From Planctomycetota bacterium (lineage in GTDB: Bacteria; Planctomycetota; Phycisphaerae; Phycisphaerales; SM1A02), in contig JADFSH010000009.1 in the NCBI GenBank assembly GCA_022560875.1, forward strand, positions 1-52,067: a stretch of DNA of 52,067 nucleotides, written 5' to 3'. Shown here in pieces: positions 17,997-26,328 of this stretch. The position numbers and the translations under genes are program-made. Below the pieces are notes generated by a model, which worked only from the letters and a program-made list of their open reading frames with translations, was not told where the DNA came from and did not search any database. The first letter of the stretch is position 1; the number at the start of each line of letters is the position of its first letter.

Positions 17997-19856
17997 ATGA
18001 GTAAGCGGAAGAAAAATAAGAATCGAGCGACTGCTCAGGGTTTAGCTCAACCGGCCTCAGACCCATCCCAGTCTTCCCTCTCATCTCCCGGAGACAGAAT
18101 TCCCGCAATACATTTCGCCGGGGGCATCATCCTGCTCAGCCTCGCCTGCGCAGCCTCTCTCGGGCTCGTGCTGGAGAATCTCGGGGCGATGTCGCTCCCC
18201 GGCTGCGGCGAGGACAGCGGCTGCGCACGGGCCGTCGCCAGCGTGTGGGGGAAGATCCCCGGGCTCAACTGGCCGCTTTCCTCCGTCGGTCTCGCGTATT
18301 TTCTCGGCCTGCTGGCGGCGTTCATCACCAGCCGCAATGGCATCCCCGCGGGGCTTCGCTTTCTCGTGCGTTTCAGCACGCTGGGGTCAGTGGTGCTGAT
18401 CACCGCGATGATCAGCAATGGCTATGTCTGCAAGTACTGCATTGCAGTCCACGTTGCAAACCTCACGTTCTGGCTGCTGATTGAATTTCTCCCCGGCTCC
18501 CGAGCCGGATCATTCCGAGCCCTGGGAACAATTGCGGCCTGCTTCGCCATCAGTGTGGGTACTTTGCTGGTGATCGAAAATTCTGTTCAGAAAGAAGTTC
18601 TGGCCCAGGCTGAACAGGAACGAACAGAATCCATTGCGGGGATAGTTCCCGTTTCCGGGCAGCAGCATACCTTCACGGGACGCTATCACTATGGCCCGGA
18701 GGACGCCCCGATTCACATCGTGATGTTCACCGACTTCCAATGCCCCGACTGCAATACCATCGAGCTTCAGGTGGAACGTCTGTTCAATGAGCGCACGGAC
18801 GTGTCGCTGTCCATCAAGCATTTCCCGTTCTGCACCGACTGCAATAAAAAGATAACCCGTAACCTCCACCCCAATGCCTGCTGGGCGGCGCGGGCGGCGG
18901 AGACGGCGGGAATCCTCCGGGGCAACGAGGGCTTCTGGGAAATGTATTTCTGGCTATTCCAGCGCGATGGCGCCTTCTCCACGTCGGAGCTGAACCAGGC
19001 GTTGCAGCAAATGGGTTATAACCCGTCCAGATTCATTTCCATCATGCGCAGCGGTGAAACCGAACGACTCGTCTGGGCGGATATCGAAGAGGCCAACTCA
19101 CTTGGATTGTACTACACCCCCATGATCTTCATCAACGGAAAGCAAGTTCGCGGCATCGCGACCCCGAATGTGCTCTACAATTCCGTCATCGAAATTGCCG
19201 CGCGCAACCCCCCACCGGATTATGACGCAACACCTCCTGATGCGGCGGCCAAATACCTCGAAGACTGGCGACTACAGAGACCTCACCACCGTTTCCTTGC
19301 CGACACGTTCGAGCATACGACCGGTCCCGAGAACCCGAAACTGGACATTCTCGTGTGGGGGGATTATCGCGAGGAAAAGACTGCGGAACTCGATCAGATC
19401 ATCCACCGGTTGACGGGGACGCGCAGCGATGTCAGGTACACCTTCCGGCATTACCCGGTCAATCCCCTGTGCAATAATCATGTGACGAAAACCTACAGTG
19501 ACGAAACCTGTCGCGCCCACCGGGCGGTCGAAGCCGCGGGAATGCTGGGAGGCCCGGACGCCTACTGGACGATGCATCGCTGGATGATTGACAATCAGGA
19601 GGCATTGCCGATTGAGCGCCTCCGACAACTGGCCATCGAACACGGTTTCGATCCGGATCTGTTCCTGGAGACCATGAAATCCGACGAGGTTGAGTTTGCG
19701 ATAACCGAGGATGTCGAAGCGGGATGGCGACTTCGAATCAAGGGCATTCCCACCGTCTTCGTCAATCGAAAACGCGTTCCCCGCATCTGGCGCGATGACG
19801 CGTGCATCATCGATGAGATCCTGTCGGAGGCGCTTGGAGAGGATCTGAACGAGTGA
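17997..19856 (+). CDS. VKOR - DsbA - degenerate DsbA triple-fusion oxidoreductase
   Basis: A 619-residue disulfide-forming enzyme. Residues 38-200 are a four- or five-helix vitamin K epoxide reductase domain with periplasmic loop cysteines C70 and C76 and the quinone-side pair C145-x2-C148 (CKYC). A DsbA-like thioredoxin domain follows, with CPDC at 249-252 and the cis-Pro YTPMIF. A second DsbA-like domain (about 440-615) aligns with the first, including a matching HYPVNPLC...C segment and GIPTVF, but EEKT replaces CPDC. The fusion should pass electrons from folding proteins through DsbA and VKOR to quinone. AGGAAA before the ATG supports the start. It is convergent with the sugar dehydrogenase gene. 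Confidence 0.85.
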   Translation: MSKRKKNKNRATAQGLAQPASDPSQSSLSSPGDRIPAIHFAGGIILLSLACAASLGLVLENLGAMSLPGCGEDSGCARAVASVWGKIPGLNWPLSSVGLAYFLGLLAAFITSRNGIPAGLRFLVRFSTLGSVVLITAMISNGYVCKYCIAVHVANLTFWLLIEFLPGSRAGSFRALGTIAACFAISVGTLLVIENSVQKEVLAQAEQERTESIAGIVPVSGQQHTFTGRYHYGPEDAPIHIVMFTDFQCPDCNTIELQVERLFNERTDVSLSIKHFPFCTDCNKKITRNLHPNACWAARAAETAGILRGNEGFWEMYFWLFQRDGAFSTSELNQALQQMGYNPSRFISIMRSGETERLVWADIEEANSLGLYYTPMIFINGKQVRGIATPNVLYNSVIEIAARNPPPDYDATPPDAAAKYLEDWRLQRPHHRFLADTFEHTTGPENPKLDILVWGDYREEKTAELDQIIHRLTGTRSDVRYTFRHYPVNPLCNNHVTKTYSDETCRAHRAVEAAGMLGGPDAYWTMHRWMIDNQEALPIERLRQLAIEHGFDPDLFLETMKSDEVEFAITEDVEAGWRLRIKGIPTVFVNRKRVPRIWRDDACIIDEILSEALGEDLNE

Positions 19857-24951: not shown

Positions 24952-26226
24952 TCATTTCTCAACTTTAGCCGCCAAGGCCTTATTGAGCTTTCGTCTGAGC
25001 GGCGCGTTCTTCTCACCTTGCTCGTCCGCTTCGTCGAGCCATTGGGAATGCAGCATTCGAGGCTGGCCCGCGTCCAAGGCGGATTTGATCAGATTAAACC
25101 GTGAAATCTCATCATCCATTTCCTTCAGCAACACTGCCGCCACTTCCCTAGCAGGTTTTTCCCGCTCGGCAGCCAGACAGGTTGCATATAGCAAGCTGAG
25201 ATCATTGCGAAAACTTTTTGTGCGGAATTCGCGCAACCTTGCTGCCTGATCCTCTGGAATATTAAGTCGCTCACTCATCCTCAATCGCCGTATTTGCTGC
25301 TTGGCTTGAGACTCCGGACTCTCATAAACCCAACCCGCATCGCACCATCTCTCATCCGCAATTAGCAACTCGAATATTTCGCGCTCAACATAGTGCAAGG
25401 TTTCTGGTCTTCCCAGGTCATCTTTGACCCTGTCATACCAGTCGAGTGTCGCCTCAGTGTCGTTGATGATCTGGTTTAGACACACCCAATCTTTGAGAAC
25501 TTCTCGATCGCCGGTTCCCTTTTCAATGCGTTCTGAAAGTTGATCGCGAAGATGCTGAAACGCCTCTTTTGCGGGCGCATGGGAATTGGTCAATTCGGTC
25601 ATTTTTCCGGCCATAAAGGAAAGCCGTACGCCGTACATCGACGGCATAAATTGCAGCATGTTTTTCCAAAGCCAGACATACTCTTCCGTCGCTTCGTCAT
25701 ACTCACCATTACGTACAAGGGCTTGGGCCAAATCATAGCGGGCGCGGATATCGACGTTACCCTCCGGATCCATGCGGTCGCCCGCCCTCTCGCGGAGTTT
25801 GTCGATGGCGCGTCTGCCCTCGCTCACGCCATCGAGCCAATCGAGGATTTGCTGGGAATCCTGATAGCCGACGACGCGATCGAACTCTTTCCCCTCCTTG
25901 AACACGATAATCGTGGGCATCGCGCTGATCTTCAGCATTTTCGCGCCCATTTTCTCCTCATCGACATCGAGTTGGATCGCGATCGCATGTTCATTGATCC
26001 AGGAAACCACGGCCTCATCGATCCACGTGGTCTGGTCCATCATTTTGCAGGGGGCGCACCAACTCGCGGTGGCGTCCACGATGAAGAGCTTTTTCGTTTC
26101 GACCGCCTTCGCTTTGGCGTCCTTGAACTTCATGTCGGAAAATACATCGGGCGGAGACGCAGCGACGGTCATCCCCAATGAAGCAATGACCCCGGCAAGA
26201 ACAAACATTCCTGTTGACTTTCGCAT
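24952..26226 (-). CDS. Secreted thioredoxin-fold protein with helical C-terminal region
   Basis: A 424-residue protein. A signal peptide (residues 1-23, cut after VAA-S) leads to a thioredoxin domain with active site WCAPC (Cys57 and Cys60) and cis-Pro in SAMPTIIVF. The remaining 270 residues are helical and TPR-like (for example DLAQALVRNGEYDEATEEYVW), as in secreted thioredoxins of planctomycetes. It should reduce or isomerise disulfides outside the cytoplasm. The frame is open to 26295, but AAGGGGA sits 5 bases before the ATG at 26226 and the signal peptide starts there. It lies about 100 bases downstream of lgt on the same strand. Confidence 0.85.
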   Translation of the reverse strand: MRKSTGMFVLAGVIASLGMTVAASPPDVFSDMKFKDAKAKAVETKKLFIVDATASWCAPCKMMDQTTWIDEAVVSWINEHAIAIQLDVDEEKMGAKMLKISAMPTIIVFKEGKEFDRVVGYQDSQQILDWLDGVSEGRRAIDKLRERAGDRMDPEGNVDIRARYDLAQALVRNGEYDEATEEYVWLWKNMLQFMPSMYGVRLSFMAGKMTELTNSHAPAKEAFQHLRDQLSERIEKGTGDREVLKDWVCLNQIINDTEATLDWYDRVKDDLGRPETLHYVEREIFELLIADERWCDAGWVYESPESQAKQQIRRLRMSERLNIPEDQAARLREFRTKSFRNDLSLLYATCLAAEREKPAREVAAVLLKEMDDEISRFNLIKSALDAGQPRMLHSQWLDEADEQGEKNAPLRRKLNKALAAKVEK

Positions 26227-26328
26227 GAAATCCCCTTTCCAAGGAAATATTCCGGGAAATGCTCTCCGCTGCTCTACAGATCGAACATGATTCATTGTAG
26301 TTTACGAAGCGTTATCAGGGGCGGTTTT

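Follow-up and report, generated by a model that had tools for sequence, protein, structure and literature searches.

Domain architecture of the fusion gene

The window, meaning the whole stretch of 52,067 nucleotides analysed here, comes from a bacterium of the Phycisphaerales (Planctomycetota) and contains an open reading frame (ORF) whose start lies 39 bases downstream of the argS stop codon. The protein it encodes was initially annotated as a VKOR-DsbA fusion with an additional DsbA-like domain, and the ORF together with one VKOR and two DSBA stretches in Pfam confirms this layout. Its features are:

17997..19856, + strand: whole gene, VKOR-DsbA-pseudoDsbA fusion of 619 aa (ORF and Pfam)
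18129..18479, + strand: VKOR domain, residues 45-161, with catalytic C70, C76 and C145-X-X-C148 (Pfam PF07884; homologue conservation)
18681..19196, + strand: DsbA domain 1 (D1), residues 229-400, with C249PDC252, cis-Pro 375 and C282/C295 (Pfam PF01323/PF13462; conservation)
19233..19274, + strand: interdomain element, residues 413-426, P413 ... K419 ... D423-W424 (conservation; helix in models)
19308..19835, + strand: DsbA domain 2 (D2, pseudo-DsbA), residues 438-613 (Pfam PF01323, E=4e-11; AlphaFold2 and Foldseek)
19371..19382, + strand: E459-E-K-T462 at the CXXC position of D2 (alignment; CXXC in 0/131 homologues)
19470..19511, + strand: C492 ... C505 of D2, a probable structural disulfide predating the duplication (conservation in homologues)
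19749..19751, + strand: cis-proline P585, retained in D2 (129/131 homologues)

The VKOR domain scores above the PF07884 cut-off and contains both the loop cysteine pair and the membrane CXXC. D1, which corresponds to the DSBA match at residues 241-389, is a thioredoxin-fold domain with a CXXC motif and a cis-proline fused to VKOR, as in VKOR-DsbA fusions. The second DSBA stretch lies in the C-terminal third of the protein, and residues 414-619 alone still gave a match above the gathering cut-off (E=4e-11).

The alignment of D1 with D2 is gapless, and matched residues always lie 210 positions apart. Its Smith-Waterman score of 229 far exceeds that of 1000 shuffles (29 +/- 4.4, maximum 55), and the likeness is thus not due to chance. 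In this alignment C249PDC252 falls on E459EKT462, C282/C295 on C492/C505 and cis-Pro375 on P585, which bears out the earlier proposal that the second copy aligns to the first with CPDC replaced by EEKT and other cysteines partly kept. The description of D2 as cysteine-less holds for the CXXC pair, which is the only one missing, but not for the domain as a whole, where C492, C505 and the non-conserved C603 are still present. Judged by its EEKT motif in place of CXXC, D2 is a pseudo-DsbA and not a DsbA enzyme.

Predicted structure of D2

We utilised AlphaFold2 to model the window's protein from shallow alignments made up of the window and related loci, with 17 aligned sequences for D2 alone. D2 on its own was predicted with a pLDDT of 83.7 and a pTM of 0.82. 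Searching the PDB with this model in Foldseek returned DsbA-type proteins, namely the thioredoxin-like oxidoreductase 3gyk, BdbD (3eu3), alpha-DsbA2 (6eez) and ScsC, with TM values of 0.74-0.79 by target for the best matches. D2 is therefore predicted to have a DsbA fold with a cis-proline, the outcome anticipated by the initial annotation. The full-length model also contains both DsbA domains; with a pTM of 0.44, we discarded its placement of D1 relative to D2 as unusable. A helix is predicted with low confidence at residues 416-425 of the interdomain element.

Distribution and origin

Searches of relatives, order and class yielded 131 tandem proteins. They belong to four families of the window's class, two from its order (f1, f2) and two from elsewhere in the class (f8, f22). 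Three further tandem proteins come from genomes outside the class, with the D2 motif EPYT in two and EPFT in one. A named bearer of the fusion is the Phycisphaerales isolate OFTM33 (L031). VKOR fusions with a single DsbA domain occur in two families of the order (f5, f6) and one of the class (f12), as well as in the form of extra paralogues in f8. One such single-domain fusion (L026) was left out of the set of 131; mean identities and the conservation of C603 refer to the 132 proteins that include it. IMG/VR, searched with the family profile, contained no relatives. In one genus, two loci (L067, G285:C34:39500-44500; L068, G295) carry adjacent pairs of VKOR-DsbA-pseudoDsbA genes, whose products are 44-58% identical by domain, with CPDC versus CEDC in D1 and EPFT and EPRT in D2.

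The argS gene adjoins the fusion gene in 8/8 family loci examined, often together with comEC/holB, and this neighbourhood was found in 0/5 loci taken outside the family. As it is absent there, these neighbours give no functional hint.

Trees were built from the separate domains, including single-domain fusions of the same class. They recovered one D1 clade (support 100/99) and one D2 clade (99/97) as sisters (96/82), with the single-domain fusions outside. The two clades are probably sisters, and the simplest account would be one ancient internal duplication before the families split, in which the CXXC of D2 was lost at the start. This fits the duplication and subsequent loss of activity proposed initially, although the sisterhood is only moderately supported. 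An unlikely alternative is that D2 derives from another DsbA gene, or that the duplication predates single-domain fusions that later lost D2. The moderate support would allow for this, and the AU test does not reject a topology that groups D1 with the single-domain fusions (p=0.20); against this alternative stand the best trees, the gapless alignment over about 150 residues and a CN...C insertion common to both domains.

Conservation and selection

The CXXC motif is present in D1 of 131/131 homologues and in D2 of none, so that D2 is retained without CXXC throughout, again as the initial annotation would expect. All four VKOR cysteines are found in 129/131 proteins, and the cis-proline is nearly invariant in both DsbA domains (P375, 131/131; P585, 129/131). 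No homologue has Cys at position 459 (E 72, S 16, D 11, Q 11 and H 8 of 131; also T, A and others). At position 462, T or S is found in 110/131 and Cys in five, which look like relics. C492 and C505 are both present in 123/131 proteins, both absent in seven and reduced to a single one in only one. Since the two are lost together in seven of the eight exceptions, they probably form a disulfide, a probable structural element kept since before the duplication.

Other positions set D2 apart from D1. The Thr that precedes the cis-proline in D1 (129/131) is lost in D2, where a compact residue usually takes its place (I 60, V 32, L 16). Many D1-specific sites are relaxed in D2, among them this Thr (T374), M376 on the other side of the cis-proline, H291 and N293; where both domains are conserved, the sites are mostly structural ones. 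The rate of evolution is higher in D2 than in D1, with a mean pairwise identity of 31% compared with 46% (132-protein set). Its dN/dS is mostly 0.08-0.37 in close pairs, and D2 is under purifying selection. In one genus (L020, L120, L121), D2 is strongly diverged (L020 D2 branch 3.0) and C492/C505 are lost.

The linker between D1 and D2 contains sites that are more conserved than most of D2 (P413, 123/131; W424, 126/131), unlike the VKOR-D1 linker, which is variable. On a 3.9-Mb contig of genome G586 (L146, G586:C1:2530400-2533500), VKOR and D1-D2 are encoded by separate neighbouring ORFs, the latter starting with an apparent signal peptide of its own. D1 and D2 thus remain joined without VKOR.

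Genomic context

Genome-wide statements derive from family searches of an assembly that is 90.7% complete, in which missing sequence could hide other genes. Within it, the fusion ORF holds the sole VKOR and sole DSBA-family matches, and the family search gave no match for DsbB. A DsbD-type transmembrane domain (PF02683) lies in a 657 aa frame at G000:C126:5538-6158; this protein may provide a reductive partner pathway, and a reductive branch may accordingly exist. Four genes downstream of the fusion, the window encodes an exported-looking thioredoxin-domain protein (24952-26295, - strand) with a WCAPC motif and a long C-terminal part. A match was also found near the fusion gene in two relatives (L031, L177).

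Possible role of D2

We propose, with a probability of about 0.5, that the fusion is a self-contained quinone-linked oxidase in which the pseudo-DsbA docks clients and/or positions D1. Oxidative folding in the cell envelope would then be carried out by one polypeptide. Reduced exported proteins would give electrons to C249PDC252 of D1, which C70/C76 and then C145XXC148 of VKOR would re-oxidise within the same chain, and VKOR would pass the electrons on to a membrane quinone. We infer the direction in which the electrons flow from VKOR-DsbA fusions that have been characterised; one from Clostridium is able to complement E. coli mutated in both dsbA and dsbB (PMC12453122). D2, having presumably arisen from D1 by internal duplication, cannot perform CXXC thiol chemistry and would be kept as a non-catalytic docking domain, whose fold and cis-proline groove may hold unfolded clients near D1 and/or fix the position of D1. 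Binding without chemistry is plausible, as the cis-Pro loop anchors the substrate in active E. coli DsbA (PMC13269488). The initial suggestion that D2 may bind substrates or regulate D1 is a reasonable but tentative reading of its role.

In line with docking, the VKOR and D1 catalytic sets are intact, the ORF holds the only VKOR and DSBA-family matches of a genome without a DsbB match, and D2 combines purifying selection, a cis-proline, a predicted DsbA fold and cohesion with D1 in G586. However, D2 changes more rapidly than D1, the best-conserved positions in D2 look structural, the cis-proline could be kept for folding alone, and the placement of the domains is unreliable. The main rival is a structural or regulatory D2 that binds no clients and instead packs on D1 or VKOR so as to limit the reach of D1, shield its active site from reductants or bring about dimerisation. 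We consider this less probable than docking. The conserved P413 and W424, set against a variable VKOR-D1 linker, hint at a fixed D1-D2 arrangement, and conservation common to D1 and D2 falls mainly on structural sites; yet a pure spacer would not need a retained cis-proline loop, and the model offers no reliable interdomain placement that would back such packing.

The replacement of CXXC is itself patterned, with Glu in 72/131 proteins at 459 and Thr/Ser in 110/131 at 462, and the E/D/Q...T/S pair (EPxT) might bind a small ligand or perform another chemistry. A model for this would be the GST-kappa / HCCA isomerase group, whose enzymes have a DsbA fold and contain serine. We regard such catalysis as improbable: position 459 varies in a way not expected of a catalytic residue, simple helix capping would be just as compatible with a polar residue ahead of Pro/Glu, and GST-kappa/HCCA enzymes were absent from the best hits in Pfam, Foldseek and the other searches made. 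Still less credible is a decaying relic without function. The faster evolution of D2 and its extreme divergence in one genus point that way, but over such a time stops or a deletion would be expected, whereas D2 persists, with its fold and cis-proline, in 131 proteins from four families, and a dN/dS well below 1 disfavours decay.

Comparison with known systems

The fusion is a conserved variant of an already known enzyme type. Synechococcus VKOR and Clostridium CsVKOR-DsbA likewise begin with a VKOR domain bearing all four cysteines and continue, in the same chain, with a thioredoxin-fold domain that has a CXXC motif. The difference lies in the second, CXXC-free DsbA domain, of which the excerpts of PMC12453122 and PMC4555120 make no mention; in the open-access literature we found no description of tandem or CXXC-free VKOR-DsbA proteins.

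DsbA-like domains also occur on other membrane proteins, namely in DsbA-NhaA and DsbA-formate/nitrite transporter fusions. One of these, a 624 aa ORF (L030, G059:C12:23826-24311), carries a CXXC-free DsbA-like domain on an NhaA-type Na+/H+ antiporter, and plasmid hits included NhaA and formate/nitrite transporter genes with DsbA-like matches of a similar kind. Unlike the fusion described here, these proteins have a transporter as partner, no VKOR and no active sister domain. Four Polyangium proteins (L032-L035), considered as long relatives and rejected, resemble the fusion in having tandem DsbA domains in one chain, but all three of their domains keep CPFC and the ORF has neither a VKOR match nor a VKOR-like cysteine pattern.

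The overall arrangement is reminiscent of PDI, in which the b' domain binds substrates. Both combine active and non-catalytic thioredoxin-fold domains in a single chain, in PDI in the order a-b-b'-a' (PMC4030966). However, D2 has a DsbA-type fold with a helical insertion, is linked to a membrane VKOR and would have an independent origin; its nearest relatives in the trees and in Foldseek are D1 and DsbA/BdbD/ScsC-type proteins, not eukaryotic PDI b domains. The fusion can at most be said to work like PDI, without being a member of that family. We tentatively suggest, as an idea more doubtful than the docking role itself, that this Planctomycetota class independently evolved a PDI-like layout in a VKOR oxidase, in which an active DsbA is paired with a duplicated pseudo-DsbA that binds substrates, so that a single chain would combine oxidative folding with a built-in means of client capture. 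If true, bacteria would have arrived at the PDI principle independently, in a protein with apparently all catalytic parts of the oxidative pathway of its genome, and the conserved D2 sites would offer a clean test of the purpose of a dead DsbA domain.
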